A model generated the notes under the pieces. That model had not been told where the DNA came from and ran no database searches. It saw only the letters and a list, made by a program, of their open reading frames with translations. The position numbers and the translations under genes were made by a program. From Apostichopus japonicus (lineage: Eukaryota; Echinodermata; Holothuroidea; Aspidochirotida; Stichopodidae), in the NCBI RefSeq assembly GCF_037975245.1, contig NC_092580.1:2640501-2704500 (forward strand): a stretch of 64,000 nucleotides of DNA, in the 5' to 3' direction. Of this stretch, positions 5,493 through 61,797 are shown piece by piece (the stretch's first letter is position 1; each line of letters begins with the position of its first letter).

Positions 5493-6530
5493 TTTCCGCT
5501 TACCAGTCAAAACGTCCCCGTACTAAAACGTCCCCGCTATTGGTCAAATCGTCCCCGTTGGTCAAAACGTCCATGTTAGTCAAAACGCCCCCATCTATCA
5601 CATTCATTCACAGTTGTGAATATATTAATTTTAAGTTATAATTTGGCTAAGTTATCGGCATACAAGTTGGATTACAGTCGCTAAATAAATCATGAAGGAC
5701 TATATCGTTTAATTATATTGGGTATGAAAAAAGTATACGCTATGTTTTTCAGTGAATTAAGGAAATCAAAACATATATAAGAGGATTAAAAAAGAATTTG
5801 GATGCGTATACTTTACAATATATATATCTATATAATATTTTAAATTGAGTGAAATCACTTACGTTTATTTTTATGAAGTAAAATTTTGTCACGAGTATGT
5901 GCCCCTGTTGATATTTGACATTTTTGAAGTAAAGAATATATCGTTCGATTACCTTTAGTGCATGTGGTAATGTTACATGTTTTACTAAAAAATTATACTC
6001 AAAAATGTTTCTGTCCTCATAACAGTCAATTCCCACTCCTAAAAACTGTGTTTTCAACCTAAACTATACTTATCCTTACTCTTTGATTTGAACTAATAAC
6101 ATCCACACTTGCATTCCAACTGATTATCAAAGCGGGCAAGGGCGTAGGAACTGGGGGGGGCGCCAGCCCCCCAATGAAAAATATGGAGGGGCGGAAGTAT
6201 CATTCCGGCCCCCCCCCGCTTCGAAAGTCAGAAAACCCCTTTTTCATTTCCAAATGAGAAAAAAATCTCATTTGGAGCACCAAATTGCATCTTAGGCCAG
6301 GTGAAAATGCAAAAATATATACAAAATGGAGCGTGTGGGTTGAAGTGTGCTATATTGCACCAAATTGCATCTGAGACCACCTGGAAATGTATTCCAACTG
6401 ATTATAAATGCAGGGACGTTTTGACTAACGGGGACGTTTTGACTGCTGGGACATTTTGGTAAAAAACTGGGACGTTTTGGTCTTAAAAAATTTGGGACGT
6501 TTTGGTAAAGGGACGTTTTGACTGGATACC
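5493..6530. mobile_element. Foldback element splitting the LINE
   Basis: The left arm (about 5503-5595) repeats GTCAAAACGTCCCC several times and the right arm (about 6413-6522) carries the reverse complement, GGGACGTTTTGAC, about six times. The host LINE resumes directly afterwards, and GTTTTTTTC (5484-5492) against GTTTTTTCC (6531-6539) looks like the target duplication. The interior has no transposase and contains a truncated hAT-type MITE. Architecture resembles the element at 1791: arms made of a short tandem motif. Confidence 0.75.
6137..6389 (+). mobile_element. hAT-type MITE, 3'-truncated copy
   Basis: It starts CAAGGGCGTAGGAA, follows the same sequence as the full copies at 35728 and 48806 (pyrimidine-rich GC block, AAATGAGAAAAAAATCTCATTTGG hairpin region, ATTGCACCAAATTGCATCTG), and stops at CACCTGGAAATG, before the usual CCTACGCCACTG end. 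ATTCCAACTGATTAT flanks it on both sides (6113-6127 and 6391-6405), so the truncation may come from a later recombination or repair event rather than from transposition. Confidence 0.8.
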
Positions 6531-26958: not shown

Positions 26959-27150
26959 GTGTAAAAGTAAGTTGGCCTGATGTTTCGATCCTAGCAGGAT
27001 CTTCTTCAGAGGCTAAATGACAACTTAGCCTCTGAAGAAGATCCTGCTAGGATCGAAACGTCAGGCCAACTTACTTTTACACATTCTATTACACAGGCTC
27101 TCTAGTGGATAAGCAGTTTGCTAACAGTTTTATTTTATTTTGATTTTTTA
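26959..27150. repeat. Hairpin repeat, GATCCTGCTAGGATCGAAACG family, copy 1
   Basis: Arms 26959-27016 and 27025-27082 are near-perfect inverted repeats running GTGTAAAAGTAAGTTGGCC...GATCCTAGCAGGATC...CTTCAGAGGCTAA. A non-palindromic tail follows (CACAGGCTCTCTAGTGGATA...TTTTATTTTATTTTGA). A one-armed copy with the same tail is at 29779-29903 and a third fragment at 46866-46945. Confidence 0.85.
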
Positions 27151-32017: not shown

Positions 32018-32400
32018 GATAAACCAGGTTTATTGACCGAAACAGCCAAAATTGTGTCTGATAAACCAAGTTTATCGGTTGATAAACCTAGTTTATCGAC
32101 TGATAAAGAAAGTTTATCGGTTGATAAACTTAGTTTATCGACTGATAAAGAAATTAGCGACTGATAAGGCAGGTTTATCGACTTTTTTCGACATTTGGCG
32201 TCGATAAACCAGGTTTTTTTCCAGTGATAAGCCAAAATTTTGATAAACCATGTTTATCAACCACAATTTGCCAATACGCTCGATAAACTAAGTTTATCGG
32301 TTGATAAACCAGGTTAACTGTCGATAAACCACGTTTATCGACAAACTTGGCAGATCCATGGTTTATCATTCCATGAACCAGGTTTATTGACCGATAAGGC
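32018..32400. repeat. Array of palindromic 21-bp units upstream of SLC22
   Basis: Units such as GATAAACCTAGTTTATCGACT recur about a dozen times with substitutions and gaps. Each core GATAAAC-N(2-3)-GTTTATC is itself an inverted repeat. The regular 21-bp spacing is clearest at 32060-32165. The array ends ~140 bp before the SLC22 start codon, so it lies in the promoter or 5' UTR region. Whether it affects transcription cannot be told from sequence. Confidence 0.85.
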
Positions 32401-32541
32401 AATATCTTCGATAGACCAGTGAAGTTTACCGAATTCTTGAGCATTTGGCTTACCGTATGCTTCTACCAAATAGTTTGTATCAAATATTGCAGATACTCTC
32501 ATGGTCATGTGTTCAAGTGTATTAATGGTTACACATGCAGA

Positions 32542-35500
32542 ATGAACTACGACGAGCTCTTGACCGTGATTGGGGAATTCGGACGCTATCAGATGCTTAT
32601 TTATGTCCTCGTGTGTATAGCGTCCATGATTTCGTCGATAATAACGTTCTCCCAAGTTTTCACGATTGCAAATGTAGACCACTGGTGTGCGGTCGGTGAG
32701 TGGTCTGACCAGATAGATGATTGTTTACCGGCCAGTGGTGACAACTACCTCGACTGCATCCACAACTACCGCGATGCATCTATTCCATCGAAGGGCGAAA
32801 TCTATGACAAATGTCAGCGCTTCAATGTTTCCTACCAAGACACATGGGGTTTAGGATATTTTGCTGGGGAATTTACGAACACAACAGAGACGTGTGTCGA
32901 TGGATGGGTTTATGACCACAGCCAGTACCGTAGTACGGTCGTAACGGAGGTTAGTGGTACCAAATTCTAGTGCATTTTCTTCGCATATCTTCGTAATATA
33001 AGGTCCTAGATTGTGAGAGATGAGGAGTAAGATGGATGCCTTTAAAATCTTGGGAGTATCTCCAGTGAAGTTATAAGGGATGAAAAGGAACATAAAAAGT
33101 AAAACTAGAGTCTATTGCAAGACAATATACAATAACGGTGGGAGTACGTACAGTTACTATAAGAAGCCCCAGAAAGTACCCCATGGACACCAAGTGTTAC
33201 CAGTTCATTAAAATATCTGTAAGTTTATGTTCACTTAGATTATCTTATTTTTTTTTGAAATTCCGAATTTTAAATTGACACTGTTTTTAATTATCGCGGA
33301 CTTTTTCTTCACATTCAAATTTGCATTCTCGTTGAGAAATTTACCCCGTTTCCTTTTCTGCCTTGAAAATCTCTTAAACCTTTTTAAAACGACTATACCA
33401 TTTTATTGATTACGACATGTACTAACTTTTGTGTATTCCTCTGCTTATTATTCATAGTTTTGCCAAAATTAATTCTATCTCAGTAAGGACGTAACTTTCT
33501 TCCCGAATAAAATGACCAACAAACTTCTTCATCATTTCAATAAAGTTTTTTTTTTCCTTCTTTCATCTCTTTAACAGTTTCATCTCGTCTGTGATAATGG
33601 AAATTATCCAGGATTGGAAAAGTCACTATATTTTGTCGGATGCTTTATCGGTAACTTACTGTTTGGAACAATTTCTGATAAGTAAGTGTGAACTATTTTG
33701 CGTTACCGTAGTCCAACAGTGAAAAGCTAATCTCCGCTCTTGTATTGGGTTTTTTGCCTATGACCTGCCACATATTTCGTCCCCGTTCTGGCGTATAGTG
33801 ACGAATGTGCAAAATGTGAGTTTTGAGAAAACGCGCTCTAAAGATGTTCACATTTTGACTTTAGTATATCAATTTATAAAGAATCTTTGGTACCGAAAGT
33901 TGTCGATATATATTAAATAAAACAAATAGAACTTTGACTTCTCATATTTGTTGCTGATCGAAACATTTCTTACAAAGTAGTATTTTAGTGTAAACATATT
34001 CGTTTTTCAGTTAATTTTAGACATTCGTCACACATTCGTCACTATGCTAGAACAAAATTTTAAAGTTTCTTCATGTCACAGACTAGTATTCGTCACTTTT
34101 GTGTGTAGTAGCCATAGGGTACACCGTGAATGTTCACTGTAACACGGGGAGAGGAGAGGGGGGGGGGCTAGGTGGAATAACCGCGGGATAGAAGAAACAA
34201 GATAACCGAGATAACAATCATTCTAAGTGCTCGGATGGAATGTATAAAGCAGCACGGTAAATAAATGAGTTTCTGTAAACTTATATTCGGTATTTTGTGG
34301 GGATTTCTTAGATTTCTGTTCGATTTCTGCAGGAGACTTTCTAGTACAGTATACAAAGGGTGATTCTGATCACTGTAACTCAGTTCTTGCAGCAGCATAT
34401 ACCTTTTCTAAAAGTATATTGTATGTAAATTAAATATAGCTGATATGTATTTAAGAAACTTCATTCTTCTTTCATTGCATTTTTGCAATATAAAATGGTA
34501 CCAGACAGGCAATACATAGATCACACGTGCCAGGGTAGAACAATATAGTATTGATAAAACATTTTCCTTAGCATTTTGGGTTAAGAGAGACACAGCCACA
34601 CTAGATACTGAAAAATATACTTTGCTTAATACCTTTGATACATTGCAAAAAAAGGTCAAACTGTCGTCGAAGTATACTCCCAGTACTCAGTTTTGGAGGT
34701 TCTAGCCACCTCAGATCCCTCAATAATAATATGTTGCGATCTTGATAGAATGAGACCTTCATGTTTTATGTTTTTATGTTCAAAGACAAATTTTCTTTAT
34801 TTTTTTTTTGGGGGGGGGGGGGATTACGCAATAAAGTCTTGCGTTGGAACTATGTCATTTGATTTACTGAACACTGGTAATTTCATTGGTCAGTTTCAAC
34901 AGAGCTCTTAGGAATTGTGCATGATACAGCAGTATCATCGGCATATTTTGTAATGTAAGGTATGTGTGAGTTTGACCTAATTTCATAAGTTTATTTAGTA
35001 AATAATATATCAGATAATGGACCCCCCCCCCCGGAGGCACAATCGCAGTTCCAAATATTTTTGCAACACAACAAGCGTTACCTCGCATCCATCAACAGAC
35101 ATCTTAATAAACTCTCCTCCCACTCACTGAACTTAAAGGGCATGATCATAATTCATTTCTTTTCGATGATCAAAAACTCGCAAAACGTATTTACTTCCGG
35201 ATAAACGTGCGTTTACGTAATGTGTTACGAATGTTTTAAAATAATTTCCGACAGCCCCAGTATACCTTTCCTGTATTTTAAGAAACCTTGGCAAATTGCT
35301 ATCTACATATTACGTTTAATATTATACATGATTTGTTTTTTTTTCTCATTTTTGACGGTACACACAGGTTAGTTAACAGTACATGTTGCAAACCATCTTC
35401 ATGTTAGGCTATACGTTGCATACAGTGATGTATGGACAGCATTTCCTTCGTCACCCTAAATGATCCCGTTGACAAGTTGACTTATGTTTAACATAACTGT

Positions 35501-38500
35501 TTTTCTTAATGCATGCATGGAACATTTTTCCTTCAACAGGTATGGTCGCTACAAAGCTTTCTACATCTCTGTAACTGCAACTGCTATTACTGGACTGTCT
35601 ATAGCAGTATGTAGGACGTACTGGACTTTTGTATTGGTTCGCTTTGTTAGCGGTTGCTCAAATATGATCTACGCATTGGCATTTACTATCGGTTAGTACC
35701 TATATCTCTCTTTGTGTTGCCTATACACAAGGGCGTAGGAACCGGGGGGCTGGGGGGGGGGGCGCCAGCCCCCAAGTGAAAAATATGGAGGGGCGGAAGT
35801 ATCATTCCGCCCCCCCCCCCCCGCTTCGCAAGTCAGAAAACCCCTTTTTCATTTCCAAATGAGAAAAAAAAACTCATTTGGAGTACCAACTTGCATCTAA
35901 GGCCAGGTGAAAATGCAAAATTATATACAAAATGAAGTGGGTGGGTTGAAGTGTGCTATATTGCACCAAATTGCATCTGAGGCAACCTGGAAATGCAAAA
36001 AAAAGGACACCCCCTCCCCTTAGACCCCTCCCCCAGGCCGGCCATCAGTCTTCAGCCCCCCCCCCACTCAAAAGTACCTTCCTACGCCACTGCCTATACA
36101 TGAAAACGTTTGCTGAAGACAAGTATCCGAACATGCATGAAGTTTGCAGAATGTACGCTCGTTAAATGACTAGCTATGATTCAGTGTCTACAAATTTAGT
36201 CCCCACCCCCCCCCCGCGCTACCCCCCAAATGCAGATCAGAGGACTGCAAATCATTGATCATCTTTCCTTTTTGTAGATTTTGTTTATGAATACTAATCT
36301 TTGTGCTTATTTACAAAATTATATTAATATATATAACATCGGAAATAATGAATTGTTTTTTTACTCACCATTAAAGGTATCGAAGCAGTGGGGCCATCAA
36401 AGCGTGTATGGGCAGGTATCGTCATATGTTTGTTTTACTCTGCTGGCTACATGGTCCTGGCAATACTCGCCTACCTGATTCCATACTGGCGCACCCTGCA
36501 AGTGACAATCTTTGTGCCTTTTGTTCTTCTCTTCCTCTACGTTTGGTAAGAATCAAGCATTACTCGTTGTCTTTTCTGAAGAAGAACAATAAAGAGAAAC
36601 ACACATAAATATGGTTCACAGGTTAATCTTAACATTTTCGCCTGTAAGATTGATTAATTTGTTTCTATTTAAGTATAATACCAATGAATCTGACGTACGC
36701 ATTTCAAGGCTGTCCTATCTGTGATAATAGGAATCAGTTGTTAGGAAGAGTCGGCGGATAAAACTAATCCCAACAAATGAATGGAATTATAGATTACGGT
36801 TTCAACTTGTCTTTGGTAGTCAGTTATAACAGCAGCAGGGGAGGGGATGGGGGGGGGGGGGTAAAACACATGTCGCAACAACAAAAATCGCTCCCTGTGA
36901 CTATTAGTGTGAATTCGTTGACTGCATACGCCTCAAAGAATTTCATAGATTACGAAACCCATATTATCAGTATTTTTAGATAATTTTTGTTTTTTTGTAA
37001 TTTGCGCTCTAGCTTTCTACCAGAATCCGTCAGATGGCTAATATCAAATAAGAGATACGAGGAGGCAGAGAAAGTGATTCTCAAGACTGCAAGAATAAAT
37101 AAAGCCACTGGCAGGCTTCCTTCTGATATGATGGACCAGTTGAAAAAGGACGAGGAAGCGGTAAGTATAGCCTACACACAGATCGCTGGGAGCAGAAATA
37201 TATTATGTGCTGTGTGGTCGAAATTGCCTTTCACTGAAAAACAAATAACTCCCGTCTTACACATGTAGGCCTACCAATGATTAAAGCGGTGAGACACTAA
37301 TATGACGGACTTCTCATTCATAAAATGTGGGAGAAATTAGGTTATCAAATTTGTGTGATTGTCCTCCCCCCCCCCCCCCCCCCCCACCGCATCACTTTTT
37401 ATTGGGGTAAATTGCAATACTAAAAATTAACGCTAAAATCCCACGAAAAGTCTGCATTTCAGAAGTTGCGGTCTAGTCCAGTTGGTAAAGAAGATTCTAT
37501 TATGTACAATGTTTGCGGAAGATGTATTCTTCATAAAGTGTAATACTATAGAATTTTCAACAACAACAATAGTTATATTCGATGAGATTGATAACACACC
37601 GGTGATGTACTGAGCTCCATCTTGACTGTCAATCCCCTCCACTATTGTACCTTTCCATGAGTCCCTATAGTGTGTACAATTGAGACCTAACACATATAGG
37701 GTCATCACGCTATGACGTCAAGTGGAATGGTTCGAATTTCTAGTTATAGGCACACAACGTTCACCCGTTTTACGTGAGTTAAAACAAGTGTTCGCCCGTG
37801 TCCTACAGGGAGATAACGAAGGATTTTTTGTTGTGCCTCTATATGTAACCGTGGTAGGTCAATTGACCTATTGACATACTATTTAGTCTACACGATAGAG
37901 GTAATAATATCGTCGAGGACGTTGTGAGGAATATAGTTTTGATCTTGTATTCTGCCTACCATAAGTCAGCGAACTGCCTGAGTAGGTATAGGCTGTGTCA
38001 AAACTGGTTCAGACAATACTCTTCATCCTTCCTAACGTTCCTCATACCAAGGTTTCTGAGGATACTGTATCTGCAGATGGCTCACACATTGAAACATTGT
38101 CGCATTTGCTATTCCGTGGTATCTGATGAGTAGTAGGGAGGGCCCCAGATCGTACCCGCGGAATCCCAATTTTTGGATGAACCCCGATCCCCTATTAGAT
38201 ATAGCCACTATGATCGCACCCACGCAATCCCACTTTGTAACATACCCAGATTCCCTATATAAGTTAGATGTTGTCACTAGAGACCCTATAGTAGGATAGG
38301 GTCTCTAGTTGTCACCAATGATCTCACCCATACCATCCCAATTGTAACGTATCCAGATTCCCTATAACTGAGATGTAGCCACCAAAGATCGCACAGTCCT
38401 AGATTGGTGTATTGATCGTCCACCAGTATAGCACCTATATGAGTAAGCCTACCTATACTAGTATACACTGGACATGCCTTTTGACATGTGAGATCGCCCA

Positions 38501-46132: not shown

Positions 46133-49100
46133 TCATAATAATGAGTTACTTCGTAAAATCGATTTGCCTGCTGTTGGTTTTTTCTTCGATCTTGTCTTTG
46201 CCTGATCACGTGAGTGCTTTATTTCAAGTGCTAGTCTCTTAGCCTGGATACGTGGCATCTTCAGTCTCCTCTGAATCTCAGTTTCGTCAAATTGACACAA
46301 GATTTTCCCGTCAATCTTCTCTTTCCAAAAACTGCCAAGGAAAGCATCAAATTTATGCCAACATAAGAAATCTAACACTTCCTCCACAGTAGCAGTCAAC
46401 AGGTCCAAAGACTCGGGAGTTTGTGATATTCGAACTTCAGACCCAAGCGAGTGTCGAAAAGCAGGAGTTGGGGTGATTTCTGAACCTACCGAGACATCAA
46501 AGGGAAACATGCTGCCCGTAAAATATTGACAATCATTATTCAAAGGTTCATCAAATGCATCATCATTAAATCCCCAAAGGTACACCAATCTTTCGAACAT
46601 AAATAACGCCATATTTTTAAACTAAAACACGGATAAGGGTCTAAAAAGTTATTGCTTATATCACGTCAGTGTCTTTGAATAGTACTGATGCGTCGGCAAG
46701 TGAAGAATAATTAACTGAGTGGTTACAAGCCATGGCACTGACCATGATAACAAAAATCCGAATCAAACCTTTCTCATGCAATTTCATATTATCGATGTCG
46801 ATAAAAAACTTGTGAATCACGTTTGAAGCACTCTTATTTTAAAAATGATCTATAGCTTATCTAGTTAAATAGTGAATTGTGTAAAAGTGAGTGCAGGGGC
46901 CTGACGTTTCGGCGATCCTAGCAGGATCATCTTCAAAGGCTGAATGGCAAGTTTTATTTTAAAATAGTAAATTTGAATAAATTAAAGCTTCAAGAAATAT
47001 GTATGCAATTCAGACCCTAGCTACGTATAGGTGGTATATCCGAACATATGCGAGTAGCATTTTACATTGAGAATTTCAGCTTTGACAGAGTTCAAAATTG
47101 CTCTGAAAACAAGACATTGGGCAAAGTAATGATTGTAGGTGCGATACAGCTCATTTACATTGCTTTGTGGCATGTGCTGGGGCAAAATCATCACTAGAAG
47201 AGAAGTCAAGATGCGTGATAATTGGGATAACTGTAGCTTCAACGTATATTTCGACACTATAGGCCTACCTTTGGTATTGGTGCTCTCGACTGGCGAGGTC
47301 TTAGGGACTTCAAATGGGCTTCCATTCACTTCATACACATCTCTGTTACCATTTTCGATGATCGAATAGGTTCCAACTGGTAACAGGCCTTTAAATAGTT
47401 TTTGGGCTTCCGGCTCTTGAAACTTTTTTACATTCAATTGCGAGGTCACCGGTATGGACAAGATCAGTGGATGGTTCATTCTTGTTGCAATCACTCTGGT
47501 TTCGTCAATTATTTCAGTTAGTAGGAAAGCTTCATCAGAATTAACCTGGCGGACACGCTGAAAACAGGACAGAAAAACTTGTGATAATATAGGTGAAAAG
47601 GACGAGACAATGTTGTAAAGAGAGGGGAGGGGGAATGGTTGAAGGTTTACAATAGGTCGATCAAGAGTGAAGCGAGCCGGCGTTTGTGGGAACAGGCTTT
47701 AATTAGAGTCGAAGGATTCGTGTGTACCGATAATTAAGTGTATAGTTAATTCAACACACTAGGAGGGAGCTGTTTCGGCTTCCTTTTCCTAATCATGTGC
47801 ACAAAGTGATCCATAAAGTGAATAAACCACTCCCCCTCCCCCGCCCCATCGCCCCCCCGCCCCCCCCCTCCCCCCGCCTCCTACGCCTATGGTATAGCAC
47901 TTAAAGTTTTCTATAGACTATTTCTATGGACTATAATTCAAGACTAAAATTTTGCCTAAAGTCATATCCTTTAATGTTTCATAATTTGAATACTTAAAGC
48001 GACTGTCAATAAAACACATTAATACAATGACATATTGACAATATGCAATATAGTAACAACACAATTTACTTAATTGTTACCGTAAAGGTAAAACCCCTAA
48101 AAGGGATATGAACCGGGCGTAACAAAACAGTATAGATAGGCAGGTTTGTTCTACTCATACAAGTAAGACTAATAAAAGATTAAAGGTGTGAGCATAAACG
48201 GTGTTATCGCAAACGTGAACTTCAAACGCGATCAACTAAGTCAAAGGTATACCATGGGTAAATGACCTGGCATTGTCTTTCAAATGTAAGTTGTTTCTTA
48301 ATAAGCACATAAACAAACAACTATCAAAGTATTATTTAAAAACCAACTCACGCACGAAGCCTCGGGAAATGTAGACGACATGCACTAAAGCCTACATTAT
48401 TGATATTACTTGACACCAGGGAATGTTGTTACCAAGCTTTTGAAAAATACATTTAACATGTAGTCAGCCCTAACGAGAGAAAGAGGCAGAGAGAGGGGGC
48501 GGGCGGGGTGGGGAGGGATACATCCCTGGGCCCGGAGTCAGGGAATATGAGACAAAAATAACGTAATTTTATTTTCATAATATAAACCTACTGAAATAAA
48601 GACGAGGCGGCATAATGGTTCCACCAGTGGTGTGCACAAACGGGGCGGATGGGCGAGGAGAGGGTTGGCATTGGAAAGGTTCCGTAGGGGATTTCCCCCA
48701 TCAACTTTCAAAGTACTTATTAGCACAATCGTTCTTAACAGGACCATGCTATAGAAAACTAACTTGCTACATATATTCAAAAACCATTGATACAAGTGTA
48801 TGTTTCAATGGCGTAGGAACCGGGGGGGCTGGGGGCGGCGCCAGCCCCCCAGTGAAAAATATGGGGGCGGAACTATCATTCCGCCCCCCGCTCCGCAAGT
48901 CAGAAAACCCCTTTTTTCATTTCCAAATGAGAAAAAAAATCTCATTTGGAGCACCAAATTGCATTTAAGGCCAGGTGAAAGTGCAAAATTCTTTACAAAA
49001 TGGAGTGGGAGTTGAAGTGTGCTATATTGCACCAAATTTCATCTGAGGCCACCTGGAAATGCAAAAAAATTCCAAAGGGGAGGGGGACACCCCTCCCCTT

Positions 49101-50979
49101 AGACCCCTCCCCCAGGCCGGCCATCAGTCTTCAGCCCCCCCCCCCCACTGAAAGTACCTTCCTACGCCACTGGTATGTTTGACACAGCATATAACACCGT
49201 TAGGCGACGTAATATCCACAACGATTAAAGTAACGGCCATGGAAAATATTTGGACCAATTGAACTTTGATTAAGTTGAACTGTTGAGGCGCAACGAGGAT
49301 AGATATACTTACCACGGGGAATTCATTAAGAGTTGTAATTTCTGACAGAGTGAAGAGCTCCTCTGATAACATTGTTGTATACACGTAGGATTTCATCTGC
49401 TGTGATATTTTCACAAGTTTTCCTTTACAGGTTCCAACAAGCATCTGTAAGCGTATAGTAATGACAGAATGTAAGATTTCATGTTTATTGCTTTTTTTTT
49501 AAATTTGCGGAGGATGATACGTGCACTCACAAAAATCTAACGCAGTACGTGCACTAGTCTACAATTCCACATTCTTTATGAAAATAGTCTCAAAAGTGTT
49601 TAGAAATACATACAACGTGATACGGTTCTGTGAAGAATAATACTTCTTCTGCGCGCCAATTATGCGTGGTTACCCCAAGGTTTGCTTATCACAGCAATCT
49701 TGTTCACTCCCGAGTTAACGCCCATTTATTTGAATGAGTTACGAACTTGAGCGTTATTTACAACTTATATAAAGTGTCATTACACGGATAAAAGCATAAA
49801 TATTCAAATGGCGAAGACATTTAATATCCTTGATTGATGAATGATATGTTACATAAAACTCACCAAATGATTCGGCATACCGTCTTTCTCTTCTACGCGA
49901 GTCAATGAAAGTACATCATTAATGCCTATACGACCCGCACTTGTTGAGGGTTCAGTTTGCAATATTCTTACAAATCTTGGAAGAGGTTTGCTTTGGATAA
50001 CTGCCAGAGTCCCACAGTATACTTGGTCATCATGCAGAGGATCTGAAAGCAAAGGTCGAGGTTCTTAAACTCACATTTCATCGGTAAAATTAACTTTAGT
50101 TAATTAATAAGGCGGAGTGTATAGCCTAGTGGTTAACGCCGGCGTCTCCCAGTCATGAGATCCCCGGTTCGATTCCCCGCCGACAGCAATGTGTGTCGTC
50201 TGGCAAGGGTGTTGTTCAATAACAACTTCCTGACATGGACGTTAAATGAAGGTGTGCCGAGAGATTGGCTTCGGTCAGCTTGCGAGTCTATAAGCCTCCA
50301 TGGCTTCTTTCGCGAGTTCCTGCTTGCGGGAAGATCACATATACATACATACATACATACATACATACATACATACATACATACATACATACATACATAC
50401 ATACATTTAAAGAGTAATATATATATACATATGTACGATATTGCTTATACCATGTCTGATAAATTCGATGCACCTATAGACTTTGTTTACTTAGAGAAAG
50501 CTCATTTAATATACCATCATTAAGTCAGGCACGGAGTTTACGAAATGAATTAAATGAATTGTTCTATTATTTAGTCTATACTCTACACTGCCCGATGCTA
50601 TGGCAGAAGAAGAAAAAGGTTTCTTACTTTGTGGTAGTAGTTCGTAAGCACCACTTGTCTGCATCGGAACAAATCGGCTCTTTCCGTGTGGATCAATTGC
50701 TTGAATTCCTCGCGTACAACGTAAGAAGTGCAGAAGGACACATTCTCCCTCTCCAAATATAAGTTGGTCTCCGCTGTCCATAAAATCTTCTTTGACATTC
50801 ACTATCAACGGTAGGGAATTCTCAAGCAATAATTTACCAAGTTTAGACTTTCCTGATATGGTATCACCCTCTTCCAGCTTAAATCTGATCTTTCTGCTCT
50901 CGGCATCCACAACATCATCCAGAACATTCTCATAGGTCAGCTGACTAGATGGGATGGATGGAAGGGGTCTGTTGGCCAT
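46133..50979 (-). CDS. GAREM: GAREM-like CABIT plus SAM adaptor, paralogue A
   Basis: Exons in transcript order: 50979-50628, 50042-49864, 49444-49313, 47557-47269, 46485-46133; phases agree and give 434 residues. N-terminus MANRPLPSIPSSQLTYENV has an RxxPxxP SH3-ligand motif and Y16-E-N-V, a YxNx motif of the kind bound by the GRB2 SH2 domain when phosphorylated. Exon 1 then reads ENSLPLIVNVKEDF, CVLLHFLRCTRGIQAI, RFVPMQTSGAYELLP, the first part of a CABIT domain; exons 2-4 continue it (GTCKGKLVKI, LILSIPV). The last exon holds a SAM domain (~350-410: TVEEVLDFLCWHKFDAFL, EKIDGKILCQFDE, RLKMPRIQAKRL) and a basic tail. GAREM proteins share CABIT then SAM. The last acceptor (46486) is the phase-consistent choice inside a longer open frame whose upstream ATG would not join in phase. 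It is a tandem relative of paralogue B at 52712, but lacks its coiled-coil exons. Confidence 0.85.
46866..46945. repeat. GATCCTGCTAGGATCGAAACG family, copy 3
   Basis: TGTGTAAAAGTGAGTGCAGG and CCTGACGTTTCGGCGATCCT with CTAGCAGGATCATCTTCAAA show a diverged single arm of the repeat at 26959. It lies in the last intron of CABIT-SAM paralogue A. Confidence 0.7.
48806..49172 (+). mobile_element. hAT-type MITE, full copy, in paralogue A intron 3
   Basis: 367 bp beginning CAATGGCGTAGGAACC and ending CCTTCCTACGCCACTG, flanked by a perfect 8-bp duplication GTATGTTT (48798-48805, 49173-49180). Sequence is very close to the copy at 35728 throughout, so the family was active fairly recently. It ends 140 bp from exon 3 of the host gene. 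Confidence 0.92.
50111..50337 (+). mobile_element. tRNA-derived SINE in paralogue A intron 1
   Basis: The Pol III promoter boxes are intact: A-box-like TAGCCTAGTGGTTAACGCC (from 50123) and a perfect B box GGTTCGATTCC (50166-50176). The unrelated body that follows (GTTGTTCAATAACAACTTCC, GGTGTGCCGAGAGATTGG, CAGCTTGCGAGTCTATAAGC) runs into an (ATAC)n tail. The tRNA part alone is not a good cloverleaf, so it is a SINE rather than a tRNA gene. Confidence 0.85.
50338..50405. repeat. (ATAC)n microsatellite, SINE tail
   Basis: About 17 uninterrupted 4-bp units, directly at the 3' end of the SINE, as is usual for SINEs with tetranucleotide tails. Confidence 0.95.
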
Positions 50980-50997
50980 CTTGTTTCTTGTTTCCAA

Positions 50998-52711
50998 TTG
51001 TCAATTACGGTTCATCGAAGTGGGTAAATTGCCTCTTTTTCTCTCTCTCGTAAAAAATTCAGAAACTTAATAGAATAGCAATTCACCAGACCCTACATGG
51101 TATTCCCCAAAGTTAATTACTTCAATGACAAAATTAAGAGTTTTAGAAATATCCACGCAGCTCTTAAAGTGAACGTCTATATTGCTTGCGTAATATACTT
51201 CAATGTATATAAGCACATACAAACAACAACGTATTGTACTATAGGATTGGGTGAAGAGCTGTGTCACATTTTTGGACGTTGCGTATGTGCTTACTATCAT
51301 GTTGGCTTTTGGTACAAAGGGCTCAGATTGCTCTATATATCATTAACCAAGTTATTGCTTTGATAAGTATAATTGCATTTGGCGGAGATTCGGATCGACA
51401 CAAACTATGGCCTAACTAAGGTAACTGCTTTCATAAGAAATTGAATAAGTTATTTGTGATGCAGTTTTTATCTTACTAAATCTCTAAAACGTAATGATAT
51501 CGAGTTTTATCAGTCTATGTAATACTTCGAAGATGCTATACCAAACATCATCAGTGACAGACAGGTTACTTGGTTATGTTATAAGTACTACAGTGTTTGC
51601 GTTCCCTTTCCATTTACATTTTTGTAGAGAGTTTAGGGAGCAGAATTCTAATCACACTTGAGTACCGTGGGCCGAGTGCATCCATTCCACCGTTAGAGTT
51701 ATAACCCGTAAATTATTATATAATTATATTTACGATATTGAACTTATGTAGGCATCAATCTTAAAAGAAAGGCAGGAGACTGATTTAAACGTATAAAAGA
51801 CATTTATTTCAGATTTTTTTGTTGTTATTTCTGAACTTTTTCTGAACTATTTCTGAACTATATTCTGAACTATTTCTGTACTTTTATTTCTGAACTTATT
51901 GATTTCTGAACTTATTTTATTTCTGAACTTATGTAGGCATATAAAAGAAAAGCCAAAGACTGATTTAAACGTATAAAAGACATTTTATTTTGTTAACAAC
52001 AATTAGTGTTATATCTTCATTGAAATTAATTTACGTTCCACATATTTATGTCCATTAATAAAATCGTTAAATAATTTTTGGTAGTTTTGTACAAGTTATG
52101 CCCCACACCATAAAAACATTATAGAATAACAGTCACATAATATGTTTTTATGCTGATATATGCCCGTGATCCAATGCATATTCTGCGGTTGCCATTCAAG
52201 TAAACCAAACTTGTTGCATTGTCGAATTCTATGTGAACAACTCACCACAGCTTTCGCATTGTTAAATGTGTACAGGATGAAAAGTATATTGAAACCACAC
52301 AGAACAAATGTGGTTCTCGAGTATTATCATCACACCAGCATAGTCGTGAATACAAAATAATTCCAATCGGCATGACATCATCCTTAGAATATATTCATTC
52401 AATTGGTGCTGTAAAAATGACGAAGAAAAACCCCCTCAAAAAGTCAAAATTACACACCATGGTTAACATTTGCCGGCGCTGATATATTTAGAGCGTGAAC
52501 AAAAATATGTCCCCAGTTTTTCGTTTCGAACACTCTCGCAATTTTGATTCGAATAATCCCCATTTTCGCCCGCCAGTTGGTTAGGGATTTTGAAAGGAGG
52601 GTTGTGAAAGGAAAACGAAGGAGTGCTTCCCCTTAAAAACTGGTACGTGTGTGCATGCCTGTGCCCATTTTAAAGAAATTTCCGGTGTTCTTGACTAATT
52701 GCAAATTATTA
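50998..52711. other. Intergenic space between the two CABIT-SAM paralogues
   Basis: About 1.7 kb between the start of A and the stop of B, so promoter of A and 3' UTR of B must both fit here. At 51743-51990 a run of TTTCTGAACTT-type units (about nine) is bracketed by two copies of an ~60-bp sequence containing GACTGATTTAAACGTATAAA (51779 and 51959). No other gene was seen. Confidence 0.6.
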
Positions 52712-55700
52712 TCATGTCACACTTTCCTTCCGTTTGTTTAGCTCCATTAATAGCCGCTTAGCATGAAGCCTGGACATTTTCAGATCCTCGTTAAGGTTCT
52801 CAAAATCCAATTGTAGCAACAAATTCCCATTGACTAGTTCTTCTTTAAATGCATCTACATAAATGTCCAGTTTCAGGTTCCTCAGAAGCTCTGCGACATC
52901 GTCCACTGAAGCAGAGTTTAGTGGTGAATTGTGATCACAACTTGTCGATGCAGGCCGAGTCTCCTGGGGTAGAGCGGGTAGCTCCCGCTTTGGACCGTCG
53001 GAGGGTGTTTGCATCGTGATACCAACGTATTCATTATCTAAAGATTCAAAATGTTGTCTCTCCTTAACGTCATCGTTTTCAAAGTACACCCGGTGGAGTT
53101 TTTCAACATAGTTTTTATTTGCAACTGCAAGCTTCGACATTTCGTCTTGCAGTATCTGCCAAGAAATGAAAACAGTAGGCTTATCTCAATACAACGTACC
53201 CATTAGAGAAATCACATACGAAGTCGAAAGGACAAGTGTCTACGGGGGGGGGGGGGGAGGGTAGAGCAATACAAAGGAGAAACACAACAATATCTCCCAG
53301 AAGAAGACAAATTGATATCGCACACAATCGACAATTCCTGTTATATCATATAATACCCTCTTCATTCGAATGTGTTCAAGTTACGCTCCAACTCAAGAAA
53401 CGAGAACTACCGTATACAACGTGAATACGTATTTGCTTGACAGAGAAAGAAATGTTGTCCAACATAAATCTAACCCGTCGCTTGGAAATCGGTTCAAATT
53501 TTCAGCTTTGCATTAGCAGGTATTACAAAGAGCGGTTTATTAAATTAATGGACCAGTCGTTATATGGAACAGGTTTTTGAAAAAGTTGATGCTAACAATT
53601 TTTTGCAGACTTCTGTGAAAATCATGTGTGATTGATGGGTTTTGACATGATTCAAACAAAGATCATGATATGCAAATGTATATGTTTCAGCTATTATGCG
53701 AATATGCTAGATGGTTCAGGGTTGCAAAGGCAAATCAGAACAAAAGCATGTCGTAAGCTTATCTCAGTTTGTTAATGGTACTGACTAAAGTTGTTCGAGC
53801 TACCAAATATTCATGTGAAGGAAAGAGATATCCAGATTAAGGTTTTAACACATGTAGACTATGTGTGTGTGTGTCTGTCTGTGTGTGTGTACAATTATCT
53901 GACAATGATTCTGCCATGAAAATACCAGTGTCAAATGCTTCCAGGACAACACCTTACATTACAAAAGTTTTAACTGGGATTTTGATAAATTAAACCACAT
54001 TTTCAAAATGAATGTCTGTTTAGATCCGTGGAAATTAATCATGCATTTGGAGAAGAGTTTTGCTTCGCTCCAGAGAAAAGAAAAGTGAAAATTTACATAT
54101 AACTTGTGACCATACCTGTGATTCCTTGCGGAGATCCGCGTTTTCCTATGGAAGATGAAACAAGTGATAACTCATTCAGCGGAAGTTGATACTGATAACA
54201 CAAATTCGTATCGGTTAAGTTAAACATACCTCCCTGTCAATATTTAAATGTGATACATGGACCATGTAAGTCCCTATCAAGTGAATATCTTACTTGCCAC
54301 ACCCGTGTGAAGGTAGTGGCAATTGTAACACATGCAAACACTGCTAAGTGAAGTTTAAATCACACGGGTATATTGTTACTGACGATACGAGCACTACACA
54401 ACGAAGTTAAAACTATGTATTCCCATGGCAACCTAGAACCATCATACATCGCTGCGGACATAAAGAAATACACAGTCTCCGTTTCAGCCTGTGCATACGG
54501 AAGCGTAGAAGGGACATTGCATTGACGAGTTACCGACTTGACAAAACGACAATTATCTGCAAATTGACGAGTTGACGAGATGGTAACGTGACAAAATTCA
54601 GAAAATTGACGTTTTGACGAGATAACGGATCTCGTCATCAATTTTCTGCAAATTGACGAGTTGCACACTTACTACCATCTCGACAAAATGACAAAATCCA
54701 GAAAATTGACGTTTTGACGAGATAACGGATCTCGTCAATGCATCAATTTTCTGAATTTAGTCACGTTACCATCTCGTCAACTCGTCAATTTGCAGATAAT
54801 TGTCGTTTTGTCAAGTCGGTAACTCGTCAATGCAATGTCCCTTCTACGCTTCCGTATGTGCACGCATAAATTGATATAAATTGATATATTTATTTCACTA
54901 ACAGTAAAAGTCAGTAAAATCTTGGTGGGGATACAAAGCTATCGCCAGTCAAGTGAATATTTACCAATTTGTCAAATTAAATGATTGAATAGTTTCCACC
55001 TCAACAGGTCCACGAATTGGAAAGGGAAACCGTGCCAGTTCGTAAGACTTGTCTTTAATTGATTAATTTGAGTTTACAGTGTTATCCGTTTAATTTGATG
55101 TAAGACGTTGTGTTATGAAGGAGAGTTAGTATCGTACATATAATGTCAGCGGTTCCCCTTGTCCACTTGGTACAATGTACTAAAGTAAAGTGTCATCTGG
55201 GTTTATCTGCGTTGAAATATGTGGACCTAAAAGCACGGTGTTGAAAAGGTGAGATAGGTGCTATCGTCATTAGATTACTATCAGCCGATCGTGACATCCC
55301 AAATTTATACTATGTCTTTAAGTTAAGTGTTCGCAACACATACATGAGCTTTAAGTATGCAAAACGTAAACAAATCAACAAACCTTTTTCAGTTGAACAT
55401 TTTCCTGTTAAACGAAAAGAAAAAAATAGCTTCAATGAGTACGAAAAATTCAGCCGAAAAATTTATTGTTACCGAATAAACAATTATGGTAGATCTACTT
55501 GGAGTCACCGTTCAACTTGCAAATACATAAAAGTAGCTGAATTTAATAACTTTATAGAGCTCATCGGACGAATAAATGCTCATACGGTGGTGAAACGTTT
55601 TATTGAGTTTGCTATGTACTAACAGTACTACTGCATTCTCATCAGAATATAAAAACCGCACATATTTTTAAAGTATATGCAAACAAAAGTCATTTTCAAC

Positions 55701-58700
55701 TTATAAATTACCTTCTCCTTAGCAGTTAGCACTGACTTCATCTCCTGTATTTGAAAATTAACAGATATTTGAGGTTCCGAAATTTCTTCCGAGATGCTGT
55801 TTTCAACACTGAAAGACATATAAAAAATTCAACTTATAAGACCCGTCCTGTTTGATCATTAAAGCTTTTAGAGATGACTGAAATGAAAGAGAAAATTAAA
55901 CAAAACGAAAGAGACCCCTCCCTCCGACCCCCCTCCTACCCCCTCCCCCATCAACAATAACATTGGATCAAGCAACCATCCACTGCATTAGTGCCAGTTT
56001 TCAGGGGGTAGGAAGCTTCCAAAAGTTGGGGGGGGGGCACAACATCAGAGGGGCACTTTCTCATTCCACAACCACCACTCGTTATGCTATAAACCGATAC
56101 ACACCGGCCATATCACTTAAATAAATATGTGTTATATATGCTATCAATACTATTATGGTGCGCTGCAACACTGTTTTGTTTATTTGTTGAGATTGTTTAT
56201 TGTTAACCGTGCTACAAAAAGATATGGGATGCCATTTTAAAAATAGCATGTACAGACTAAAATTAAATAATTAAAATAAAATATTAAAAATTAACAAAGT
56301 CTTAAGATATCCAAAAGACAGTTCTTCATCAAACGGGCACATTTTATTTGCCATTAGGGCACATTTGCTATTTTGGGGGAAAAAGGGGGGGGCACGCGCC
56401 CCAAGTGCCCCCCGGCTCCTACCCCCTGCACATAGAATTCGAAAATGCAACAAATGGGTTTACTTGAATAGCAACCGCAGGATATTTATTGGATCACGCA
56501 TGTATCAGCATAAAAACATATTATGTGACTGTTATTAATGTTCTTATGGTGTGGAGCATAACTTGGTGGGCACGTGCCCCTGTGCCCCCCCCCCCCTCCC
56601 GGCTCCTACCTCCCTGCCAGTTTTACCTTCGTCGTCTGGTCCTGATTTGTTTAAATTTGTCTCGTATTGAACTTTTCTTTCTTAGCGACGACTTTGCATA
56701 ATCTGCATAAATTTCGTCCCCTTCTCGTTGGTCTTCTTGCTTCTCAGTGTTCCCAGGACGGCCAGAAGTGTCCAATATTTGACGCATAAAGTTTCTACCT
56801 ATTACACAGACAGGAAATAAACATTTACAAATTAAGGGATTTATACAAATACGTTTCATCCGTTAATATTCGCATATATCACACCGATACCTAATTTCTT
56901 TTAACGTGATTGTTGTTGCAGTAATTCAGGAAATGCTGGTTGTTATATAATGTTATCAGTGTTATTTCTTATTCTTATAATCAAATGGTGGGAACTGTAA
57001 TTTTGGCAATGATTTGACTATAGGTTTGCCAGCTGAAGGTTATTATGCCACAAAAAGGTACATGTTGTTGTGATGTTGATTTGACAGCCGCGTATTGATG
57101 TAGTGATTTTTTTTGTAAACACTGAAACTGCACAGGACGGCGCATTCGATTCAACGGTACCGCGACGCATTCTATTCAACGGTACCGTGCATTCAATTCA
57201 ACGGTACCGCGCATTCTATTCAACGGTACTGCGCATTCGGTTCAACGGTACCACGCATTCTATTCAACGGTACCACGCATTCTATTCAACGGTACCGCGC
57301 ATTCGATTCAACGGTAACGCGCATTTGGTTCAACGCATTCTATTCAACGGTACCACGCATTCTATTCAACGGTACCGCCCATTCGATTCAACGGTACCGC
57401 GCATTCGGTTCAACGGTACCGCGCATTCGATTCAACGGTACCGCGCATTCGGTTCAACGGTACCGCGCATTCGATTCAACGGTACCGCGCATTCGGTTCA
57501 ACGGTACCACGCATTCTATACAACGGTACCGCGTCAAACGAGTGAGGACGCCTACGACACTGTCTCACATCAATCTCGACGTTCTTTCCAAGGAAATTGT
57601 TTGTTTTGTAACACATGCTTATATGTTCTCGAGTCATTTCAATCTGTTTTGTCATAGCGTATAAAAAGTGCAGTTCTCCAGTTACTTTAACAGCAGTGTA
57701 TAAAACAATATTTGTTCCTATCAAATACCATATACTGCTTAAATATCAATTAACGTGTGCACTCATTGGTGTCACGAAGCGAAAGCCAGTTTCTGTTAAA
57801 TAAATAGTGTGAAAAAGTTGTTTACTACTGGCAGCTGCCAAACCACCCAATATTTTGGAATAATTGACAAAATAAACCAGTCAAAGTATCGCTCTATTTA
57901 CTTAACCAAAAAGAACAAAAAGGAACCAAAAAAAAAAAAGTGGGAGGGTTTTGAATAGGAGAACAAACAGGTAAGCTAGCTGGATTTTCTTCTATTGTTA
58001 AAGCAAAACTGTGTGTGATGAAAATAAAACTGTTTCCGCCGTATCCCTGCTTTATAGAATAACAGTCAATCCCCCTTACAAACATTGAGTGTATGAATTT
58101 GCAATTGAAGTTAGTGTACCTTAGTTGAAATGAACTCTAGTTTGCTATAATATATTGAAGTTCAGGGATATTGTTTAATAAAAAAGAATACGAGTTTACC
58201 GTCATCGCTCTGAGACCAACGTCGAGTCACTTCTTCAAGAGGTTGAGGGATTTCCTGCATAGCTAAAGGCAGACTCTTTCGCCCATATTCCAAGTCACAT
58301 AGTGTCCAATTCACCAACTGATACATTGGTTTCATCATGTGGGATAACAGATTCTCGTCTTCTACGTGCCGTAAAAAAGTCAAACCGTCTATCGGAATGG
58401 ATATCATCTTACTGCTGTCTATGTGCGTAGCTATGATGTGGGCCTCTTCTCGGATGGCTTTGAGAGATAATTCAACTTTGTCATCTGTTCGTCTTATCCT
58501 CTGTAAAACAGAATCAAGGAAAACGACGACAATCGATTACTAAGTTCTATCAAAAATAAAGACCTTATATAATGAACCATTTTCTACCACTGAAAGATGT
58601 ACTTAGCAATAACACTAAACGGAAGGTGATGGGGCTATGGAGCAAGGAAACATTACTGTATTGCATATTGCATTCTTACCATCGGTAGTGAGTTCTGCTG

Positions 58701-61700
58701 TACTATTTGGAAAAGTGTTTGTGGTTCATTATGGACCATGGTCGTGTACACAGATTTGATATCTTCGTGGATGGCCACTGGACTCCCATTGCAGGTTCCA
58801 ACCAGTATCTGAAAGAAATATATGAAGCCAATCGACTATCCGATGAAAGGTCATACGAACTTTGCGTATATATTACGTGCCTTGTAACTATACTTAGAAC
58901 GTACCTAATCAATATTAACCACACTTGGAGACTTTCGGCCGATACAAAAGTAAACTTAAAAATGCAAAAACATAAATTAGTTTATGTGTTAAATCTCATT
59001 AAAATGTTAAAATCGCATCTACATAGCAACTCGCAAGACACGGTTATTTACAAATAACTTAATTTTACCGTGTATATTTTCTGTTTACAGAATACACTGT
59101 GAACTGAAACTGCATTTTTATGCAGTGCAGATTTCACTCGAATATAGTATTAATTTGGCAGTCGGACAAAAGTTTATGAAGCACAACCATTTACTTTAAT
59201 TGTCATTTTTCATACCTTTTTCTTATCAAATCCATGTACGTCCACTTCATCGATGTAACCTAACTCAATAATGTCTCCTTCTTTACCGACGTTGGAACTT
59301 TCTCCACTAGAGTTATCAATTCTCAGAATTTTGACCTTTTCTGGCAATGGTTTGCAATTGATTACGTCTCGTGTGCTGTACATTTTCCTATCGTCGTAAA
59401 TTTCTTCTGCAAAAGTCAAATCAAAGAGAAATTTCAACATGATTTGGAGAGTGACCTGTATATGAACAATTCCTTTGATTCGTCATATTTCTATAATTGC
59501 TATTTTTAACAATTTATAAATATCAGATTTTGGTGCCAATGTGTATACTCGCTTTTTGCAAATATCTGTTTCAGTTTCACGTTTCAGTAACTGTCACCAA
59601 TCAAGTGTTTAGTGCCTGAAATTCGCATGTATAGCTCATTCGATTACCGAGTAATAACCGGCCATAGTTTCGCTGATCGTTCAAACTTCAGTGAGAATCT
59701 CCCATGCAGTTTTCGGTTCATGACTTAGCCTACTTATATGCTGTACTTGTGTGTACGATTATTTTTAACCTTTTATCAGCCGTTTATCTATGACAACCAA
59801 TCTCTACTGTGGTCTTTGGTGTTGAGAACCCCATCACCATACCGGTCTCAATTCATCATATTATAATAAAGCAACTTAAAGCAAACAAAACACTCAGCTA
59901 CAAACTTGAGAATTGACCATGAATCTAAATAAGGCAGGTTAGTTTTGCACACTTGCACCCACAGTGTACTTCGAGCTATCTGGCGTTAAACAATGTGCTT
60001 TCTATTACTCCAAAAGGTATGTCATATTCATGTTCAACGAAAAAAATACAAAAATACAAATACGTAAGTTTTTGTATTACCAGGTTAATTGAATTTTGTG
60101 CTCTTGATTCATCTCCGCGAACTTCTCGTCCTTATGTGCATTTGTACTACTAGGGAATAGCATATATGCAAGAATCGCCATGTAATTTGTAACATTGTAC
60201 GGCCCGAAATAGAAAAGATCAGGAGGTTAACAGCGTAATAGAACGTGTGGTATATGTTATGTATCCTGATGTGTGGTATATGTTATGGGCCCTATGTGGT
60301 ATATGTTATGTGGTATACGTGTGGTATATGTCATGGTATATGTTATGGTATATGGTATAACGTGGTGTATATGTTATGGGCCCTTATTGTGTAAGTCACG
60401 TGCACGTCACGTGTCAATGATAGTAGTATCATAGCATGATAAGTCTGATCCTATTTATTGTTTTCCATCGGTCCTCATTACTTTTTGTCTGTAACTATAA
60501 CAATGTACAAGTATTACACTTCCATAACCGGTACCCATATACGGTCCTCTCACATTTGTCAGCTTGTACAGTTTTGAATACACGGTGGGAGATATACCAT
60601 CCTATCTGTAAATGTCGTTTTTAAAATCAAACATATCTTTTATTCAAAACAATATTACACCTTTCATGTTTAACTACTGTACAATAGCATATCCTAAAAC
60701 GCGCGCTCTCTTTCTCTCTCTCTACGAGTTATCCTTCCTTGACCCCCGACAGAAAAACATTCTCTAACCGATTCGTTCCATCCATTTCTCTTACCACTTA
60801 CCGACTTGCAGGACTACAGTACTGCAAGTCGGGGGGCCCCTGGAGGAAATTATACTGTAGTCACCATCCTACGAATAGGTTAAACACACTGACCTGGTAG
60901 AGGTCAGTGGTTAAACAGCAGTCAGCCAATAACCGAGCTGACCATAACAGGTCAAGGTATTGGAAAGACCAACGAGGTGTTTGTTTAATTGCTTTGTTTG
61001 GCTCATAAACCATTCAACTGGAAAGAGTAAACAGATCTGACCGCAGGGAAAGTCATAATTTTCTATGACTAGATTGTTTGCACAGACGTGTAAACACACT
61101 TGTTTCGACAAAAGTTTCTTGAAAATCACTGCCGCGTATAAAGATAACAGTTAGCTTACACTTGGTCATTTGTTATACTGCGTGTGTCCCTCACCATAAA
61201 TGATAAAACGTAGATAAAATTTACTTATAGCTTACAGTATATAGTGCAAACTAGCCAACGATAATATGGAAAACTCAAGAGGTAATTATAGCTGGCGCTA
61301 TAAGACGAAATAATTTAATTTACATAGAAAGTGTAGTTTATGTTAAACTATTTACTATGTAAGAATAACAATAAGAAATATTGTTTAATACTCTAAATTT
61401 AAAAAATCCAATGTGTATACATCAGCTTACCTTTAGGTAAAATATCGTACAATTGAGATGCATGGATAGGCAGGACAACGTCTGTTCCGTCATTATACAT
61501 TGCAAGGACTCTTTTCCTCTTGACGATGAAGTGAAGCACCAACAAATCTCCTTCTTCCGTTATCTCATCAGGAAATGTACAGCCTACACGTGCAGTCATC
61601 GGCAATGTGTGTGACGTAACCAACGCACGAAGAGGAGTTAAGTAGGTCCACTTTTCTTCATCGTCACTCTCTACAGCATCCAGCTTAAAACAAATGTTTT

Positions 61701-61797
61701 GTTGAGTAGACAGATAGGCATAGTTCTCGTCTGTGGTTTCTTCAAGTTCGTCAATCGATTCGACATCTCCTGGTAACGGTGGCAACGGTCTTTCCAT
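52712..61797 (-). CDS. GAREM: GAREM-like CABIT plus coiled coil plus SAM adaptor, paralogue B
   Basis: Exons in transcript order: 61797-61431, 59406-59216, 58808-58680, 58500-58200, 56798-56627, 55808-55712, 54145-54116, 53155-52712; phases agree and give 576 residues. MERPLPPLPGD at the start is the classic class I SH3 ligand RPLPPLP. CABIT region ~25-330: SHTLPMTARVGCTFPDEI, DLLVLHFIVKRKRVLAM, LPIHASQLYDILPK, ILVGTCNGSPVAI, MISIPIDGL. Exon 5 is basic at its end (SSLRKKSSIRDKFKQIRTRR). Exons 6-8 give a coiled coil (QIQEMKSVLTAKEK, ENADLRKESQ, ILQDEMSKL), then a proline motif PALPQETRP (~488-496) and a SAM domain (~512-570: SVDDVAELLRNLKLDIYV, ELVNGNLLLQLDFENL, DLKMSRLHAKRLL). Start is the first ATG, matching paralogue A. 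An adaptor role downstream of tyrosine kinases is inferred from GAREM; membrane spans and signal peptide are absent. Confidence 0.9.
53860..53892. repeat. (TG)n microsatellite
   Basis: Interrupted TGTGTG/TCTGTC run in the last intron of paralogue B. Confidence 0.85.
54116..54145 (-). CDS. 30-nt microexon of paralogue B
   Basis: Reads ENADLRKESQ in phase 0 on both sides, with CATAG before and GTATGG after. It extends the heptad-like coiled coil between TAKEK and ILQDEMSKL. Being a multiple of three, it can be skipped without a frameshift, shortening the coil by ten residues. Confidence 0.7.
54496..54856. mobile_element. Palindromic MITE with ~115-bp inverted arms, 6-bp target duplication
   Basis: 361 bp beginning TACGGAAGCGTAGAAGGGAC and ending in its reverse complement. 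The arms match for ~115 bp with about two mismatches. TGTGCA stands on both sides (54490-54495 and 54857-54862). The arms and interior are built of TTGACGAG/GACGAGATAACGGATC motifs. It lies in the intron between exons 6 and 7 of paralogue B and is non-coding; the 102-codon frame across it is an artefact. Confidence 0.9.
56002..56616. mobile_element. hAT-like element inserted at a splice donor of paralogue B
   Basis: Starts CAGGGGGTAGGAAGC and ends GGCTCCTACCTCCCTG (inverted termini), with a perfect 8-bp duplication CCAGTTTT at 55994-56001 and 56617-56624. A second end-like GGCTCCTACCCCCTG at 56413-56427 suggests a composite or a duplicated right end. No transposase frame. The right duplication is bases +3 to +10 of the intron after exon 5 (donor GTAAAACTGG on the minus strand). 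Confidence 0.82.
57128..57535. repeat. 22-bp minisatellite with GGTACC
   Basis: About eighteen units of GGTACCGCGCATTCGATTCA plus AC, varying GCG/ACG and GATT/GGTT/TATT. In the intron between exons 4 and 5 of paralogue B. Because 22 is not divisible by 3 the long plus-strand frame cycles through RIRFNGTAHSIQRYRAF; it is not a gene. Confidence 0.93.
60236..60385. repeat. Short GTGGTATATGTTATG tandem repeat
   Basis: Irregular array of GTGGTATATGTTATG/GGCCC units in intron 1 of paralogue B. Some units are truncated. Confidence 0.8.
60795..60840. repeat. Hairpin in paralogue B intron 1
   Basis: CCGACTTGCAG, a ~10-nt loop, and CTGCAAGTCGG form a perfect 11-bp stem near 60800-60831. A second small stem, ACTGACCT...AGGTCAGT, follows at ~60887-60909. 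Confidence 0.6.

Follow-up and report, generated by a model that had tools for sequence, protein, structure and literature searches.

Two tandem genes on the minus strand

Positions 46133-61797 of the 64,000-nucleotide (nt) stretch of Apostichopus japonicus DNA analysed here (contig NC_092580.1; the whole stretch is referred to as the window) are filled exactly by two gene models arranged head-to-tail on the minus strand. The pair had been described as tandem CABIT-SAM paralogues in a first-pass annotation, and its arrangement as two head-to-tail genes is borne out by models that span the segment from end to end. Gene A extends from 50979 to 46133 (-) and encodes 434 amino acids in 5 coding exons, and gene B from 61797 to 52712 (-) with 583 amino acids in 9 coding exons. 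Both start at an ATG in a favourable context (A at -3, G at +4), with an in-frame stop upstream of it, and end at a stop codon of their own; AATAAA signals are found at 51989-51808, between the end of B and the start of A. By sequence, A and B appear to be separate genes and their predicted structures are well supported.

All exons are on the minus strand. Exon 1 of A (50628..50979, 352 nt) carries the ATG and an RPLPSIP motif and is followed by exon 2 (49864..50042, 179 nt), exon 3 (49313..49444, 132 nt, starting with MLVGTCKGKLVKI), exon 4 (47269..47557, 289 nt) and exon 5 (46133..46485), which encodes a SAM-like domain, a basic tail and the stop. Eight AG sites were examined for the acceptor of the last intron; those in the needed phase are 46485, used in the model (score 6.3), 46479 (4.4) and 46434 (2.1). 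In B, exon 1 (61431..61797, 367 nt) holds the ATG, an RPLPPLP motif and the first half of a CABIT-like region, which aligns to the N-terminal half of the GAREM1 CABIT. This region continues through exon 2 (59216..59406, 191 nt), collinear with exon 2 of A, and exon 3 (58680..58808, 129 nt), which starts with ILVGTCNGSPVAI and includes a putative degenerate CABIT core cysteine. It ends in exon 4 (58200..58500, 301 nt), which itself terminates in phase 1.

The first four exons of the two genes are collinear and share the intron phases 1,0,0,1. Their equality in order, phase and content, initially claimed from comparisons such as the exon 3 starts MLVGTCKGKLVKI (A) and ILVGTCNGSPVAI (B), is confirmed by the exon lengths, the phases and the order of the tblastn matches. 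Protein A compared to the window recovers the exons of B in order, with expectation values (E) of 6e-8 for the SAM exon, 2e-5 for exon 3 and 7e-5 for exon 1, and weaker matches to exon 2 (0.001) and exon 4 (0.40). The N-terminal parts of the proteins share 31% identity and the terminal exons 30%; the local alignment of the former reaches a z-score (z) of 46.6, with none of 500 shuffles attaining its score. A and B are tandem paralogues. As the identity is near 30% and the alignment is nevertheless far above chance, the duplication is real and old, or the genes are fast-evolving. A further copy is not evident in the window: outside A and B, the best tblastn match has an E of 2.8.

The introns of A also contain repeated sequences. 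A dispersed element occupies 48806-49172 in intron 3 and recurs at 35728-36092 (86%) and 6151-6389 (90%). In intron 4, 46878-46953 matches 26958-27026 in direct and 27027-27083 in inverted orientation (80-83%), and is therefore a palindromic dispersed element. The sequence at 50110-50250 in intron 1 is transfer RNA (tRNA)-like by eye and could be a tRNA-derived short interspersed nuclear element; in the window, no tRNA or other RNA family was returned by ARAGORN (bacterial code) or by Rfam at gathering scores.

SAM domain and N-terminal region

B possesses a SAM domain, with a Pfam SAM_1 match at E 7.2e-8 in the whole protein, where it scores 33.1 bits against a cut-off of 23, and at 1.1e-8 in the open frame, as well as a SAM_2 match at 4.7e-5. 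It had been proposed that both genes end in a SAM exon and that a SAM profile search be used as the check. The proposal is firm for B and weaker for A, which stays below the 23-bit cut-off of SAM_1 with 16.3 bits on the open frame and 14.2 in the whole protein. A SAM in A is nevertheless supported at the sequence level. The best match of both SAMs in the PDB is the same entry, 2dkz (B 5.6e-6, A 0.062), and a profile built from the two terminal exons places it at the top of the 33 listed solved-structure sequences (1.3e-8; SARM1 follows with 1.7e-6). This entry is deposited as 'hypothetical protein LOC64762', which we take to be GAREM1. The model of the SAM exon of A, computed with that of B as second row, is poor, with a predicted local distance difference test (pLDDT) value of 51.8, and a Foldseek search with this model gave 28 matches at E 3.1-9.9 and none better. 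These include the SAM entries Ph-Scm, PHC3 and Scm together with one KSR-MEK-CNK-HYP complex, and were not counted as evidence. No Pfam domain besides SAM exceeds its cut-off in either protein.

The N-terminal region was compared to the human GAREM1 CABIT and THEMIS sequences. Over the whole regions, B and GAREM1 give a local score of 69 with z 6.69, reached by 0 of 2000 shuffles, and reversed-sequence controls give z 2.1-2.3; the aligned stretch runs from PLRALVTSHTLPMTARV through LPEKVKIL. When the N-terminal halves of the two are compared, z amounts to 9.45 (score 69, 0/2000 shuffles as high). With 500 shuffles, the local z is 7.15 for B and GAREM1 (0/500), as compared to 5.6 (0/500) and 2.6 (12/500) for GAREM1 with CABIT1 and CABIT2 of THEMIS. 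Using hhalign, a profile of A and B matches GAREM1 at E 0.00094 and reversed GAREM1 at 0.047, and the pairs formed by GAREM1 with THEMIS CABIT1 and CABIT2 are weaker than the former (0.04 and 0.073). Since a genuine pair only attains such values, the failure of the A and B profile to reach THEMIS is not strong counter-evidence. A CABIT-like character is thus supported for the N-terminal half of B, whereas a putative CABIT in A rests on its paralogy with B.

It is fairly unlikely that the N-terminal region is not a CABIT at all, that the pair shares only the SAM with GAREM and that the resemblance in domain order is convergent. The following results nevertheless weigh in that direction. The CABIT profile test suggested by the first-pass annotation was negative: neither A nor B matches Pfam PF12736 at E up to 10, and the same profile recovers the GAREM1 CABIT at 1.4e-69 and THEMIS at 2e-129. 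Alignment to GAREM1 is confined to the N-terminal half of B, as 650/2000 shuffles reach the score of the C-terminal half, and 164/2000 and 971/2000 those of the two halves of A. In a library of 2004 sequences, made up of A and B, both proteins reversed and 2000 shuffles, a phmmer search with GAREM1 ranks B 4th, below three shuffles of B, and A 336th; a hidden Markov model of three CABITs ranks them 25th and 190th. An hhalign comparison to three CABIT rows in a poor alignment returns a probability of 0.5%. The N-terminal profile of A and B compared to the PDB, where THEMIS is represented by 9i3p, 9iaz and 9uou, yields no THEMIS chain, and its six matches (E 0.03-0.34) are ribosomal L25. A single-sequence AlphaFold2 model of residues 1-330 of B is poor (pLDDT 30.6). 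Opposed to this alternative are the z of 9.45 for the N-terminal half of B, unmatched by 2000 shuffles, the hhalign result, in which the A and B profile lies closer to GAREM1 than GAREM1 does to THEMIS, and the SAM, which independently finds 2dkz as its nearest structure.

Direct alignments to THEMIS are at best weak (A with CABIT2, global, 6/500 shuffles as high; B with CABIT2, local, 11/500). The published CABIT core motifs of THEMIS span residues 150-174 and 411-434 (PMC3931654), and in both a cysteine precedes LPL...G.F. The cysteine of an LVGTC site, conserved in A and B, was equated by eye with this core cysteine, and the LP and G are not kept; the CABIT core in A and B would therefore be at best degenerate. 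An internal-repeat test of the double barrel was also tried and set aside. It gives z 1.69 for B, -1.3 for A, 0.62 for GAREM1, 4.29 for THEMIS CABIT1 and -0.12 for CABIT2, and is uninformative as two of the three known CABITs fail it too.

The SAM and CABIT scores of A, which are weaker than those of B, would also be expected if one gene, most likely A, were decaying or non-functional, in which case the missing coil described below would be a symptom. This is highly improbable in view of the five open exons of A, its consensus start and splice sites, and the identity of about 30% to B that it maintains over both conserved regions.

Exons confined to B

Between exon 4 and the SAM exon, B contains sequence that has no counterpart in A. 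Exon 5 (56627..56798, 172 nt) encodes the basic segment RKKSSIRDKFKQIRTRRRSV, whose net charge is +9 and whose last residues are encoded by exon 6 (55712..55808, 97 nt), where a coil-like segment begins. Two microexons follow: exon 7 (55384..55404, 21 nt) encodes ENVQLKK, which is as long as one heptad, and its donor is weak (4.8), and exon 8 (54116..54145, 30 nt) encodes ENADLRKESQ between an acceptor scoring 9.9 and a donor scoring 9.2. Exon 9 (52712..53155) comprises the end of the coil-like segment, an RELPALP motif, the SAM domain and the stop. The restriction of the extra exons to B, as noted at first, is upheld, and their number is corrected from three to four (172, 97, 21 and 30 nt). 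In intron 4 of A, a search for a single hidden exon found no open in-frame candidate of 12-399 nt with donor and acceptor scores of at least 4.

It is decidedly improbable that the exons specific to B, the microexons above all, are artefacts of exon picking and that exon 4 reaches the SAM exon through other exons. The number of candidates is by itself ordinary. With microexon candidates defined as phase 0, 9-60 nt in length and with a splice score of at least 3 at each end, both strands of the window contain 112, or 2.24 expected by chance in the interval from exon 6 to exon 9 (2556 nt), where 2 are found, both being exons 7 and 8 of the model. A competing open candidate, 55404-55344, is also present, and the donor of exon 7 is weak as mentioned above. 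The quality of the sites argues the other way: the combined splice score of exon 8 (19.1) is the highest of all 112 candidates, corresponding to 0.02 expected, and that of exon 7 (15.2) is reached by 10 of the 112 including itself, corresponding to 0.2 expected. The other introns (8371 nt) contain 4 candidates with combined scores of 8.4-9.2. Moreover, any in-frame connection of exon 4 to exon 9 needs both exon 5 and exon 6. Of the candidates of 60-400 nt in that interval, five are open and score at least 4.5 at both ends, exons 5 and 6 included, and none of the five bridges phase 1 to phase 0 as a single exon.

The peptide encoded jointly by exon 7, exon 8 and the beginning of exon 9, ENVQLKK-ENADLRKESQ-ILQDEMSKL, is leucine-zipper-like. 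The leucines at 424, 431, 438 and 445, encoded by exons 7, 8 and 9, form an L-x6-L-x6-L-x6-L pattern that is absent from A. The first-pass annotation had described a basic segment and a coiled coil; the presence of coil-like sequence in B only is upheld, and a coiled coil as a structure would be a reading of that sequence. A four-leucine heptad is weak when taken alone, as 96 of 2000 shuffles of B have one, which also favors the artefact explanation; the heptad contrast of residues 387-475 of B is not significant (91/300 shuffles as high) and is higher in the terminal exon of A (20/300). This statistic therefore does not single out B.

The reading frame imposes constraints on these exons. Exon 4 of B ends in phase 1, exon 5 leads from phase 1 to 2 and exon 6 from 2 to 0, exons 7 and 8 both remain in phase 0, and exon 9 starts in phase 0. 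Only 4 of the 16 combinations of exons 5-8 are in frame; all of these retain exons 5 and 6, with exons 7 and 8 each optional, so that B is unable to yield an A-like, coil-free protein by exon skipping. The phase of the terminal intron also differs, the SAM exon starting in phase 0 in B and in phase 1 in A. A clean one-step gain or loss of an exon block therefore does not fit, and conversion of one gene structure into the other would also require the terminal splice site to move. The initial proposal that B gained, or A lost, a self-association module is consequently modified, as neither a gain in B nor a loss in A would be a clean exon-block event.

Repeated sequences were also observed in and around B. 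Intron 7 contains at 54482-54870 an inverted repeat resembling a miniature inverted-repeat transposable element, with 156-nt arms that are 91% complementary and 77 nt apart, and in intron 4, at 57140-57533, a 44-nt (2 x 22-nt) unit is repeated in tandem about 9 times. Inverted copies (88%) of a dispersed element lie at 52092-52235, downstream of B, and at 56565-56429, in intron 5.

Comparison with known adaptors and interpretation

Short motifs of the form RxLPx[LIV]P, putative SH3 ligands of a type that binds Src-type SH3 domains, occur twice in B (RPLPPLP at the N-terminus and RELPALP at 493) and once in A (RPLPSIP at the N-terminus). As many are found in 0 of 5000 shuffles of B and in a fraction of 0.0022 for A, with a pattern that was defined after seeing the sequence; for the general class I SH3 pattern, the fractions are 0.015 and 0.18. 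No PxxPx[RK] is present in A or B. LTYENV at 14 in A matches a loose pattern for an immunoreceptor tyrosine-based inhibition motif (ITIM) that is reached by 0.44 of shuffles.

GAREM proteins are described as consisting of a single CABIT, a SAM and a proline-rich region (PMC4082722), and binding to the GRB2 SH3 domain via proline-rich motifs and to SHP2 via an ITIM is reported (PMC6852768, PMC8086153). A and B resemble GAREM1 and GAREM2 (FAM59) in combining a single CABIT-like region with a C-terminal SAM nearest to 2dkz, and in their possible SH3-ligand motifs. They differ in the absence of a Pfam CABIT match and of the long proline-rich middle, with only 8 prolines in the 187 residues 330-516 of B, between the CABIT-like region and the SAM; in the absence from B of any YxN or ITIM-like (LPYEEL-type) site; and in the basic and coil-like segments of B. 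The shortage of prolines and the missing tyrosine sites are further points against a GAREM assignment. The GAREM-like label of the first-pass annotation is hence sustained by the SAM and, to a moderate degree, by the CABIT-like N-terminal half of B, but the CABIT profile check that it proposed itself was negative for both proteins. As the CABIT profile, the proline-rich region and the ITIM are all missing, formal membership in the GAREM family is not established; the pair may work like a GAREM adaptor.

GAREM2 is reported to form granules via a glycine-rich stretch (PMC8086153), a functional parallel to the putative coil of B that employs a different module. THEMIS proteins share with the pair the possible CABIT fold and the character of an adaptor with an SH3 ligand; they are composed of two consecutive CABITs and a proline-rich region, whereas the CABIT-like region of A and B is single, spans about 320 residues and is combined with a C-terminal SAM. 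The SAM domains of SARM1/TIR-1 and Polyhomeotic are similar in sequence to those of A and B, with scores below that of 2dkz. The pair is a modest variation on a known kind of protein and not a new kind.

No coil variant of a CABIT or GAREM protein is described in the retrieved portions of the CABIT-GAREM literature, and nothing on a coil of the B type appears in those on microexons, coiled coils and heptads. Among the matches listed for CABIT with invertebrate evolution, only pathogen avoidance in C. elegans is treated, and among those for the full GAREM name with echinoderm, only mouse salivary gland. GAREM does not appear among the matches listed for its combination with deuterostome names, which does not show absence. 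Among the matches listed for CABIT, SAM domain and serrano, CABIT occurs only in PMC4082722, and THEMIS, CABIT, structure and SHP1 together gave no match. In viral contigs, 4 pattern matches to B were obtained, none of which is a relative.

Taken together, these results lead us to favor, with a probability of about 0.6, the reading of A and B as ancient tandem paralogues that represent compact GAREM (FAM59)-type adaptors, B being equipped with a dimerising coil. Contacts via SH3 and SAM domains would probably bring A and B to complexes of growth-factor receptors or immune receptors. The coil would make B a dimer and the basic segment RKKSSIRDKFKQIRTRRRSV might hold it at membranes, A acting without a dimer module. 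Dimerisation, SH3 binding, membrane contact and the role in the receptor tyrosine kinase-MAPK pathway suggested at first are all inferred. A more speculative proposal, considered unlikely, is that the pair divides one adaptor between a dimerising B and a coil-free A that cannot be interconverted by splicing, the coil of B being adjustable via its skippable microexons and A serving as a fixed competitor or dose regulator. If the favored reading of A and B as compact GAREM-type adaptors is correct, the assembly state of such an adaptor would be set by gene duplication and a microexon-built coil, CABIT-SAM proteins would come to include sequences beyond the reach of the current CABIT profile, and self-association as a tuner of this adaptor would be open to direct test. 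Otherwise, A and B would be an ordinary divergent tandem pair.

Other features were recorded elsewhere in the window. An open frame at 32398-32970 (+) resembles the first part of an organic cation transporter of the SLC22 type; as a single frame, it gave no Pfam match at E 0.1. Two satellite-like arrays of a 185-nt tandem repeat are located at 822-1790 and 2242-3374.

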